A DNA stretch of 62,470 nucleotides, taken from positions 1-62,470 of the forward strand of contig JABURQ010000024.1 in assembly GCA_014762625.1 (NCBI GenBank). Direction: 5' to 3'. Shown piece by piece: positions 12,641 through 20,218 of this stretch. Numbering within the stretch: the stretch's first letter is position 1; every line of letters begins with the position of its first letter. The notes beneath the pieces are model-generated. The model was not told the origin of the DNA. It was given only the letters and a program-made list of their open reading frames with translations, and made no database searches. This DNA comes from Planctomycetaceae bacterium. Lineage in GTDB: Bacteria > Planctomycetota > Planctomycetia > Planctomycetales > Planctomycetaceae. Position numbers and translations under genes: made by a program.

Positions 12641-12725
12641 GCGGCTGTGGCGGAATTGGCAGACGCGCAGGATTCAGGTTCCTGTGCCCGTTAAGGGCGT
12701 GGAGGTTCGACTCCTCTCAGCCGCA
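12641..12725 (+). tRNA. tRNA-Leu (anticodon CAG)
   Basis: 85 bases with a complete cloverleaf: acceptor GCGGCTG/CAGCCGC, anticodon stem CAGGA/TCCTG around loop TTCAGGT with CAG at 12675-12677, a long variable arm as in class II tRNAs, T-arm GGAGG-TTCGACT-CCTCT and discriminator A. CCA is not encoded. Its 3' end is the attachment site of the island that follows, and its last 20 bases are repeated at 20198-20217. Confidence 0.97.
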
Positions 12726-13950
12726 TTGATTGCCTTCGTACGTTTTCGTACTTGGCCGATTGCCCCTGTAAAACAGGGGTTTTTTTATGCGCGGGGAAAA
12801 TCGGTTCCTGCCCAGTTTCCCCAGATACGGCAGGGTACTGCACCGCTTTTTGCAGCGCCCTCTCGAAATGCTCGTCAGTGACCTGCAGATAGTGCTTCGC
12901 GGCGATCAGTTGAGAGTTGCCGATCCAACTGCAGACGATGTGCATGGGGAATTGTTCCGCCAGTTCGGTCTCCCGAGTGCTGCGGAGATTGTGGAACAGC
13001 TTCGGCCAGGGTTTCAGGCCGGCTCGTTTGATGATCTTCTCAAAGGTTGTTCTGAGATTCTGTTTCGGATCACGATAACGGGTAATCACATGCTCCGCTT
13101 CGTCTTCTGCCTGATCCCAGACTTCATCCAGATACGGTCGGATTTCGGGGAAAATGGGGATCACCCGAGATTCCTTCCCTTCGTGATGTTCCGTCTTGGG
13201 GCTGCTCACGATCATCTTCTCTTCTTCCCAGAGGATATCCTCCCATCGCAGCGCCAAGTGCTCTGACGGGCATCTCAGGCCACCATAACGGGAGAGAGCG
13301 AAGATCAGCCGCCATTGAGCATCGGGACAGGCCTGCAGGATCTTCGTAGAGTCCTCTCGGCTCACGAAATACTGCCGGCTCGGGTTACTACTGGAAACCA
13401 GCCCTTTCAACTCCTCAAAGGGATTGGAGTCGATCAGCCGGCGTTTGACAGCCGACCGAAAGAACTGCTTCGCCCCTCGGCAGCGAAGTCGGATTGTGTT
13501 CTCTGAGTAATCGAGTTCCGCCAGATAGCGTCGGAAGTCGGCAGCATCCGCTTCGGTCACATCCCGCAACCGCTTCTCGGCTCCGAAGAAGTCGATCAGG
13601 TTCCTGCGGGCATTCTTGTACTTCGTCTTCGTGGAAGGTTTCACATCGGTACGGGAGGCAATGTAGGCATCCACGAATGCTTCCAGCGTCGATGCGTCGG
13701 GAGGTTCAATCAGGCCGGCATTCGCCAGCTTCTCAGCCAGTCCCGTTTCCAGTCCCTTCACCCAGCGGGCTGTCTCGGGATCGAGACCATGCCCGGTGAT
13801 CGAGGCAGCGACCAGTTTCTCGACCTTCAGCTTGATCGTCAGGGCATCAGACTGAGACACCTTCCCGAGTCGAATGCTTTTCCGTTTGCCGTCAGCAGCC
13901 ACGAATTGAACTGTGCGGCGTCCGTTCTTTTGCTTCGAGATAGAAGCCAT
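12691..13950 (-). CDS. tyrosine recombinase/integrase of the island
   Basis: 419 residues in the integrated form. An N-terminal SAM-like core-binding region (about 85-190) precedes the catalytic domain with Arg in GGLRCPSEH, Lys near SPKTEHHEGKES, the HNLR box and the nucleophile Tyr at about 354 in KHYLQ. The position usually held by the second catalytic His (LGHS) is Asn in WIGNS. The start at 13950 has AGGA upstream; an earlier frame to 14064 lacks similarity. The 3' end is read through the attachment core into the tRNA (last residues MRLRGVEPPRP). In a circularised island the same frame would continue into the segment at 20197-20012. Confidence 0.93.
   Translation of the reverse strand: MASISKQKNGRRTVQFVAADGKRKSIRLGKVSQSDALTIKLKVEKLVAASITGHGLDPETARWVKGLETGLAEKLANAGLIEPPDASTLEAFVDAYIASRTDVKPSTKTKYKNARRNLIDFFGAEKRLRDVTEADAADFRRYLAELDYSENTIRLRCRGAKQFFRSAVKRRLIDSNPFEELKGLVSSSNPSRQYFVSREDSTKILQACPDAQWRLIFALSRYGGLRCPSEHLALRWEDILWEEEKMIVSSPKTEHHEGKESRVIPIFPEIRPYLDEVWDQAEDEAEHVITRYRDPKQNLRTTFEKIIKRAGLKPWPKLFHNLRSTRETELAEQFPMHIVCSWIGNSQLIAAKHYLQVTDEHFERALQKAVQYPAVSGETGQEPIFPAHKKTPVLQGQSAKYENVRRQSMRLRGVEPPRP
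12706..12725. repeat. attL core
   Basis: ttcgactcctctcagccgca, the last 20 bases of tRNA-Leu; identical to 20198-20217. Flanking bases on both sides differ between the copies, so 20 bp is the full identity. Confidence 0.92.
12763..12786 (+). terminator. terminator for tRNA-Leu supplied by the island
   Basis: CCCCTGT (12763-12769), loop AAA, ACAGGGG (12773-12779) and seven T's. It lies 38 bases past the tRNA but inside the island and inside the coding part of int (opposite strand), so it replaces the chromosomal terminator displaced by integration. Confidence 0.8.
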
Positions 13951-14060
13951 GAAATCTAATCCTTTCTCAGAAGACCGACCACGGCTGGCAGCTTCTGAGG
14001 TCTGCACAGCCGCAATCGGCAAAGTTGATGGTGATTGTAACGAGTCACAAGATCTGCGGA

Positions 14061-14231
14061 TCAACTCTTTCCGAGATTCTGAGGTTCAATGGGAAGATCG
14101 GGGGATAACTCCACCGCATTTCCATCTTCATCGGTTCCAAAATATCGGTGACAGTCATCGCATCGATAAATATGATCGTCGATCACACGATGATCGTCTG
14201 AATGACAATAGGGACATTGAATCGAATTCAT
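14061..14231 (-). CDS. zinc-ribbon miniprotein of the island
   Basis: 56 residues. Two CxxC knuckles, CPYC near the start and CDDC about 18 residues later, form a zinc ribbon; the rest is acidic (TDEDGNAVELSPDLP). The start at 14231 is preceded by AAGGAATCTC, and the longer frame upstream overlaps the ATPase gene without sense. It begins 10 bases after the ATPase stop, so the two are probably co-transcribed. Small zinc-ribbon proteins of this type often bind nucleic acid or recruit partners; the role here is unknown. Confidence 0.72.
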   Translation of the reverse strand: MNSIQCPYCHSDDHRVIDDHIYRCDDCHRYFGTDEDGNAVELSPDLPIEPQNLGKS

Positions 14232-14241
14232 GAGATTCCTT

Positions 14242-19149: not shown

Positions 19150-19398
19150 ATGTCCAGACCGCGTCACAATAACAAAAATATCGAGAAAGCACTCGCATAC
19201 GCTGAGTCAGCGGGATGGAGGGTGGAAAAGGCAAAAGGGAAAGGACATGCATGGGGCAGAATCTATTGTCCATTTAGCTCCAGAGAAGGTTGTATCATCT
19301 CTGTTTGGTCTACCCCAAGAAATGCAGAGAACCATGCGAGGCACATAGTCAGAAAAATTGACTTATGTTACCACGAGGGGGATGAAGACTATGAGTAA
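19150..19398 (+). CDS. HicA-like small protein, putative toxin
   Basis: 82 residues. NIEKALAYAESAGWRVEKAKGKGHAWGRIYCP and ISVWSTPRNAENHARHIVR fit a small alpha-beta-beta-beta-alpha fold like HicA toxins, with the His of GHAW at the catalytic-like position. In my recollection this family is regularly followed by an HTH protein like the next gene. No ribosome-binding site precedes the ATG, and the promoter lies about ten bases upstream, consistent with a leaderless transcript. Toxic activity is inferred from context only; a HicA-type role would be mRNA cleavage. Confidence 0.6.
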   Translation: MSRPRHNNKNIEKALAYAESAGWRVEKAKGKGHAWGRIYCPFSSREGCIISVWSTPRNAENHARHIVRKIDLCYHEGDEDYE

Positions 19399-19990
19399 TG
19401 AAACATTGAATCAGGAATATGAATTCACTTTGGTAATCGGCAACATCAGCGAGATTACTTGTGAGCTAGAAGATAGGCTGTTCGAAGCTGGATGCGATGA
19501 CGCCACCATCAGCATGCAGCAAGGTCGAGTATACATTACCTTTTCCCGACGAGCCGAATCTATCGAGTCAGCTATTTTAGATGCCGTGAAGTCTGTTCGC
19601 ATGGCTAAAATTGGCGCCAAGATACTTCGCATCGATCAATGCGATCTCGTTACGCAAGCTGAAATCGCCAGGCGCATCAGCAGGTCCCGACAAGTCGTGA
19701 ATATGTACATCTCTGGAGAAAGAGGCCCCAAGGGGTTTCCCCCGCCAGTATGTAATATCACGGACGAATCATCGCCTTTGTGGTATTGGTGCGAAGTAGC
19801 TGGCTGGTTGTTCGAAAATCAAGTCATAAGAGAAGAGGATTTGCACCAGGCACAAGTTGTCGCAATTCTAAATTGCATTCTTGAATTGTCATACAAAAGA
19901 AATATGGCCGCAGAGGAAACTGATAAATTTATGGAAGAACTTTGCTTGTGCAATTCAGAAGACTGTGAACAAATACCAGCGACTGCATAG
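19391..19990 (+). CDS. HTH protein, putative antitoxin/repressor of the pair
   Basis: 199 residues. The N-terminal half (EYEFTLVIGNI...ACDDATISMQQGRVYITFSRRAES) resembles a small beta-rich partner domain; the middle has a helix-turn-helix, VTQAEIARRISRSRQVVNMYI, followed by FPPPV and LWYWCEVAGWL. The ATG at 19391 overlaps the previous gene by 8 bases and has GAGGGGG about 10 bases upstream, implying coupled translation. The likely role is to neutralise the HicA-like protein and repress the promoter through the palindrome at 19111-19126. Confidence 0.7.
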   Translation: MSNETLNQEYEFTLVIGNISEITCELEDRLFEAGCDDATISMQQGRVYITFSRRAESIESAILDAVKSVRMAKIGAKILRIDQCDLVTQAEIARRISRSRQVVNMYISGERGPKGFPPPVCNITDESSPLWYWCEVAGWLFENQVIREEDLHQAQVVAILNCILELSYKRNMAAEETDKFMEELCLCNSEDCEQIPATA

Positions 19991-20011
19991 AGACATCCTT
20001 TTCTGTTGTTT

Positions 20012-20218
20012 TCAATCTTGAACAAGCTTTACCATGTTGGCTTGGACTTGAGCGGGCAGAGTCGGCCAAGCGTCTATGATGCATTGAAGCCGGCTGTCAA
20101 ACTGGCACGAATCGGGATCAACTGCACCGGATTCTGCAGCGCCTGAATCGGGCGATTGCTGTAAGTCAATGCTCTCACAGTCGGTTACAGAATCCGCTTC
20201 GACTCCTCTCAGCCGCAC
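20012..20218 (-). other. detached integrase C-terminal segment at attR
   Basis: A minus-strand open frame starts in the attR core (RLRGVE, the same codons as in int at attL) and runs 61 more residues to a stop, including IIDAWPTLPAQVQANMVKLV, a motif I associate with planctomycete integrase C-termini. Joining the repeat copies on the circular island puts this segment in frame behind int, giving a 476-residue integrase. In the integrated state it has only a GTG at 20216 and is probably not translated. Confidence 0.7.
20198..20217. repeat. attR core
   Basis: Exact copy of the last 20 bases of tRNA-Leu (12706-12725), marking the right end of the island. Confidence 0.92.

Follow-up and report, generated by a model that had tools for sequence, protein, structure and literature searches.

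A tRNA-targeted planctomycete island whose integration is predicted to replace the C-terminus of its own integrase

Why should the integrase gene of a genomic island end within the tRNA gene that the island has entered, and what is the coding sequence that takes up the same frame at the island's far end? The question is raised by a 62,470-nucleotide stretch of a Planctomycetaceae bacterium (assembly GCA_014762625.1, contig JABURQ010000024.1, positions 1 to 62,470; hereafter the window), where the gene for a tyrosine integrase (int as integrated, 12694..13950, minus strand; Pfam Phage_integrase at 2e-11) reads from an ATG at 13950 into a tRNA-Leu (CAG) gene recognized by ARAGORN (12640..12726, plus strand) and stops at a TAA at 12691-12693. 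According to the original prediction, recombination between two copies of an attachment core exchanges the C-terminus of this enzyme, which could bias it towards integration when free or towards stability when integrated. We found the two 20-bp cores, that of the left attachment site attL (12706..12725, plus strand), which lies within both the tRNA and the int open reading frame, and that of the right attachment site attR (20198..20217, plus strand), to be an exact repeat; assuming uniform bases, an identity of 20 nt between a tRNA 3' end and sequence within 7.5 kb of it would arise by chance with a probability of about 1e-8. The chromosomal integrase has 419 residues and ends in RLRGVE followed by PPRP inside tRNA-Leu, the last four codons being antisense tRNA. 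The frame that leaves the right core stays open for 61 codons (the tail, 20015..20197, minus strand, read 20197-20015) up to a TGA at 20012-20014, and joining the two ends on one core yields a 476-residue product, with neither a stop nor a frame change across the predicted junction of the free element's attachment site, attP. The tail, the lengths of both forms and the repeated core were thus predicted exactly. As read from the sequence, attP is embedded in the int coding sequence, and integration is predicted to replace 61 residues with four, stripping a conserved hairpin from Int and leaving its catalytic domain whole (positions 6-172 of the 172 of the Pfam Phage_integrase profile).

The intact tRNA, the displaced 3' fragment and the integrase inside are the features of a tRNA-targeted genomic island, here extending over approximately 12726-20217 and restoring the 3' end of its target. 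Because 20 relatives gave no match to the right-flank gene of the window, the tRNA was used to look for the empty site. Two genomes of the same genus (G051 and G052) carry the same tRNA-Leu with the left flank of the window, in blastn pieces of about 71-90% identity, the last of which stops at the core; the 5.9 and 4.6 kb that follow the core match neither int nor the tail profile nor any of the island, and contain no second core. The 60 nt after the core in these genomes resemble the right flank of the window over about 31 nt, with scores of 15 and 13 that were reached by 0 and 6 of 2000 shuffles; the island side scores lower (8 and 8). Genes further to the right are not shared between these genomes and the window. 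Taken by sequence comparison, an insertion of about 7,492 bp at tRNA-Leu is well supported.

The arrangement recurs in other planctomycete genomes. The window tail alone as a query retrieved matches in 16 of 170 genomes of the family, its own included, and a profile made from 18 tails (A1) matched, at E 0.001, 109 of these 170 and, across the phylum, 105 of 392 genomes; both counts are upper bounds because hairpin-only matches include other proteins. When int was sought in 36 chosen tail-bearing genomes, 33 gave a match at 1e-20. After four N-terminal fragments of split integrases had been set aside, 99 of the 103 int matches were paired with 91 tails from these 36 genomes, giving, among the matches listed, 43 tail-int pairs that share a contig and lie no more than 100 kb apart. 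The tail lies 5' of int on the same strand, as in the window, in 38 of these 43; among the other five, three have the tail 3' of int (two of these at less than 300 nt, adjoining or attached) and two have it on the opposite strand. Cores were delimited by a rule blind to frame, requiring the antisense of a tRNA 3' end or T-arm-like letters; the longest common substring was dropped as a core finder, as it picked other repeats, such as the arm motif described below, in several pairs. A common core of 10-96 nt was present in 36 of the 38 pairs, with none found by this rule in the other two; all 36 are in frame with int, and 33 of the 38 are open through the tail. Four pairings were judged redundant or false, namely G105:C74 (a match inside a duplicated tail), the second tail of G532, and those of G003 (1496279) and G082:C154 (36454), which are second int matches sharing a tail with another int; after their removal, 32 of 34 are open.

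The targets called by ARAGORN at the open cores are tRNA-Val, Leu, Met, Ala, Gln, SeC, Arg, Ile and Glu, with some cores lacking a tRNA call. The islands differ in the frame in which they read the T-arm (e.g. GDTGLE, DGNRT), yet every tail matches the frame of its own int, so that it is the gene, rather than the tRNA, that fixes the frame. The genome of the window itself holds a further island of about 19.5 kb in a tRNA-Val (TAC) (contig C11; L168 and L009), whose 21-nt core likewise joins in frame. The exchange of the integrase C-terminus is therefore borne out, at the sequence level, both at the window and across the tail-int pairs. The tail also proves to belong to this integrase family, as the tails of other genomes sit by their own int relatives and the joined form occurs in six distinct virus records, considered further on.

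What the tail might contribute can be judged from its two parts. Across 80 distinct tails, synonymous codon variety in the arm part (GGAESGAV and the residues preceding it) falls far below that expected from the codon usage of int, with z reaching -14; the hairpin part (D..L...I.AWP.LP..R..I..LV) is near background, with z per column of -3.3 to +1.4, and includes a tryptophan and a leucine present in 80 of 80, although selection of these tails by a hidden Markov model (HMM) and their mutual relatedness inflate residue conservation and lower codon variety everywhere, which has to be counted against our interpretation. Given such related rows, the informative point of the codon analysis is the contrast between the arm and hairpin parts. 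In the window, the arm-type motif of the tail (P; 20120..20146, minus strand; 36.0 bits), which codes for SGAAESGAV and lies under synonymous-codon constraint, has a counterpart inside int (P'; 12836..12862, minus strand; 28.1 bits, with 0 of 200 shuffles as high), 110 bp 5' of the core on the coding strand. A copy of the 27-bp tail motif lies in int, on the 5' side of the core, in 30 of the 31 islands scored, with 0-4 of 100 shuffles as high; G285 is the miss, and the 31 come from 32 clean islands, one of which had no delimited stretch. The two motifs co-vary within an island: the identity of own pairs is 19.45 of 22 as against 15.72 when permuted, a value reached in 0 of 10,000 permutations of 31 of the 33 rows (G285 and G475, with weak motifs, being omitted) and again in 0 of 10,000 with one row per genome (25 rows). 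Arm-to-core gaps show a suggestive helical phasing across rows that are interdependent. In having arm-type repeats on both sides of the core in these 30 of 31 islands, the system resembles those of the lambda-type heterobivalent integrases, binding here being predicted from sequence. Thus, probable P' and P arm sites, to which Int would bind, appear to lie with the core entirely within coding sequence.

Could the tail then be attP DNA and nothing else, its sequence past the core kept conserved by the arm sites and its open frame a by-product? The strong codon constraint on the arm part, and its repetition of a motif found in int, would agree with this. We nevertheless regard it as highly improbable, for the hairpin lies beyond the arm motif and conserves its residues at codon usage near background, and the frame is kept in the 36 core-sharing pairs regardless of how the T-arm is read. 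The arm part looks to be constrained as DNA and the hairpin as protein.

AlphaFold2 modeling and conservation together delineate a two-helix hairpin at residues 35-60 of the window tail (20018..20095, minus strand), with helices predicted at 35-46 and 49-60 (block-mean predicted local distance difference test score, pLDDT, of 84-97; predicted template modeling score, pTM, of 0.41). The tail has no family match in NCBIfam, Pfam or PHROG. In L182, a natural joined relative modeled with 28 rows, the N-terminal and catalytic parts are confident (overall pTM 0.58), residues 373-461 have a pLDDT below 50, and helices follow at 463-474 and 477-492 (block means 75-94); on these models, the hairpin would follow a disordered linker. 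Foldseek groups the L182 model with the Tn1549 Int, XerA and lambda Int (1z1b), and Pfam SAM-like and Phage_integrase domains in int would suit a lambda-type layout, in which the N-terminal domain may bind the arm sites.

The loss of a C-terminal segment on integration has a parallel in the integration-dependent immunity of mycobacteriophage BPs, where, in the part of the account available, attP lies inside a coding gene whose product is shortened on integration (PMC4557955); in that phage a repressor gene is concerned, and what integration removes is an ssrA-like tag. By extension, the planctomycete tail might be a destabilising tag on the free form that is lost on integration. This seems quite improbable, as the planctomycete ends are not ssrA-like (one of the 80 tails ends in AA, LA or VA) and conservation falls on an internal hairpin that is followed by variable residues. 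The W-hairpin motif was also observed at the ends of other proteins of related genomes, including an Ion_trans ion channel (L366:2675-3604:-) and a protein with an AEP-TOTE primase domain (L369:1269-2711:+), and it may represent a mobile interaction module.

We scanned with an int alignment (A2) and took the best 80 of at least 570 loci in genomes and the best 80 of 140 in virus contigs (IMG/VR). Among the genome loci, 65 ints overlap an antisense tRNA at the 3' end, and L332, labeled attached on a 14-residue match, is counted with them because it also overlaps an antisense tRNA, giving 66 integrated forms beside 11 of other kinds and three truncated ones. The virus loci comprise nine attached, five antisense, 64 other and two truncated forms. 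The nine attached records contain six distinct integrases with the hairpin (L178 and L179 as one, L182, L186, L189 and L190 as one, L200 and L207), and L245, which has the arm part without the hairpin and stands outside the six. The tail profile matches seven of the nine, once each, with no second match. Direct terminal repeats, which usually denote that a contig is circular or terminally redundant, were found in the records of L182 (G543; 119 bp), L186 (G544; 80 bp) and L207 (69 bp), and none in those of L178, L189, L190 and L200. L189, which is attached, and L197, which is integrated in a tRNA-Ser, are sister branches of the tree whose ends differ past the core, and as judged from these sequences they represent the two states in a natural pair. 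Bacterial contigs likewise hold attached copies (G105:C74 and G125:C27). With L182 as the query, tblastn at E 1e-10 found no match among 50,697 phage records, a set that may or may not include Mx8, and no plasmid relative. Two further observations concern the attached state: L362:2218-3717:- encodes an integrase with its tail attached and no tRNA called nearby, and the virus integrase L219:10001-11431 has, beyond a GLE-type stretch (NRGLEENENSPANTEVLKK), another ending that lacks the tryptophan, so the tail may be replaceable.

We posit that the window island is a tRNA-targeted integrating element bearing the whole attP in the 3' part of a lambda-type int gene, with a free long form fit for integration and an integrated form that is weaker or directionally different, a proposal that we hold to be fairly probable. 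The layout would be the arm motif P' in int, the core, and then the arm motif P and the hairpin module in the tail. The free circle would yield full-length Int (476 residues) with the hairpin on a flexible linker, and the hairpin may make this form fit for integration, for example by aiding Int subunits or a partner in assembling on attP. Upon integration, Int would keep its catalytic domain and gain a four-residue end of antisense tRNA, with the tail stranded at attR; in the window, no in-frame ATG, GTG or TTG precedes its tryptophan. The weaker or directionally different Int would leave the insertion stable until an excisionase-like factor acts, and excision would re-form the full int gene. 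That loss of the hairpin attenuates the integrated Int is suggested by the precedent of phage Mx8. In the portions of the published accounts available, its attP lies in a tyrosine integrase gene, and integration exchanges 112 residues for 13 and leaves an enzyme that is still at least partly active (PMC6070905, PMC4701971); one account reports the altered Int to be less active (PMC4701971), and the other reports it to be changed in specificity rather than inactivated (PMC6070905). Any bias of the enzyme by the swap would probably be towards integration when the element is free.

Several observations weigh against this proposal. For the window, the right boundary of the empty site is drawn from a short match, the left being firmer, and the free circle is itself a prediction from sequence. 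Two of the 34 pairs are broken (G067:C15 and G151:C2), and both tails on contig C102 of the window's own genome carry an in-frame TAA, with a truncated int there. Many of the 64 'other' virus relatives, among the best 80 of 140, are without the tail, from which it follows that the integrase family works without it. A tree of 147 ints, labeled partly by motif, gives no single origin for the arrangement, requiring 19 label changes, at least eight of them forced, as against 45.4 with shuffled labels. In 59 of the 80 tails, some in-frame ATG, GTG or TTG stands before the tryptophan (an ATG in 14), and given these start codons, separate translation of the attR tail may be possible elsewhere. Such possible starts, like the tail-less relatives and the intact catalytic domain of the integrated ints, would suit a neutral swap, in which attP moved into the 3' end of int, the tail has a duty unrelated to direction or is a separate small protein, and both forms of Int act alike. 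This we consider improbable, in view of the frame kept with int, the breadth of genomes and tRNA targets, and a window tail with no possible start codon before its tryptophan.

An integrase that gains and loses its tail through its own recombination could have a further consequence where islands accumulate. When islands are stacked at one tRNA, all the integrases except the tRNA-proximal one would read, by virtue of the geometry, via the core into a neighbor's tail. It is conceivable, though on present sequences we think it unlikely, that the tail is an exchangeable part among islands, such that a newcomer re-arms a resident integrase or borrows its tail, giving chimeric full-length enzymes and allowing other islands to flip the switch. 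The attached forms in G105:C74 and G125:C27 are compatible with such re-arming, short of proof, and the stack on C102 is not a clear case. On that contig (L008:6737-9772), we observed a 243-nt stretch of core and tail duplicated 2.8 kb apart at 97% identity, the ends of the two tails being different; this is probably a decayed stack at a tRNA remnant.

The remaining genes of the window island include one for a helix-turn-helix protein (15464..15721, minus strand) that matches HTH_17 at 7.9e-9 and the PHROG excisionase family phrog_66 at 1.7e-8, and also TIGR01764 excise at 0.0014, below the cut-off of that model; this excisionase-like protein is a candidate directionality factor. Other cargo includes an AAA_25 ATPase and a protein with a weak GIY-YIG match below cut-off, among others. 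Beside attR, at 19150-19990, lies a pair matching the PADLOC candidate defence models PDC-M06A (8e-30) and PDC-M06B (5e-27), the second of which also matches a PHROG annotated as 'excisionase and transcriptional regulator'.

The principle of a recombination site placed inside a gene that integration alters is already known. Phages Mx8 and Mx9, the latter likewise having attP inside int in the accessible part of its account (PMC6070905), resemble the window element in carrying attP within their own tyrosine integrase gene and replacing its C-terminus on integration. In contrast to these, the planctomycete islands target the 3' ends of many kinds of tRNA, lose a small hairpin, code for both arm motifs in int and recur across many genomes; the likeness drawn here is one of layout. 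In the streptococcal rumA integrative and conjugative elements, the excised element encodes, so far as the consulted part of the source states, an integrase of another length and C-terminus (PMC4701971). The change in length and C-terminus is shared with the window, whereas those elements use a serine recombinase with the attachment site inside it and rumA as the target. The archaeal suicidal (SSV-type) integrases also have the recombination site inside the enzyme's own gene, according to the part of the source available (PMC8371274); there, integration parts the N-terminal from the catalytic portion, unlike the window int, which loses a C-terminal tail alone and keeps its catalytic domain whole. 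A literature search, with most subscription papers outside its scope, gave no description of this arrangement in planctomycetes among the titles and abstract openings listed. Hence, against the background of Mx8/Mx9, the rumA elements, the archaeal integrases and the BPs repressor, it is the planctomycete variant that appears to be new. Beyond the original prediction, arm sites are coded in the same stretch, a conserved hairpin lies past the arm site, and the arrangement is common.

These observations extend a handful of known cases to a recurrent natural design, in which one stretch of DNA serves as attachment site, probable arm-binding site and coding sequence, and every insertion rewrites the enzyme of the element. 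Planctomycetes would thereby offer many natural matched pairs of tailed and tail-less enzymes for the study of recombination direction. The design would also account for the 'GLEP'-type integrase ends and the orphan tail open reading frames of planctomycete genomes, where the tail is a marker for the far end of such islands. If the re-arming of stacked islands were true, integration would be a reversible genetic switch.

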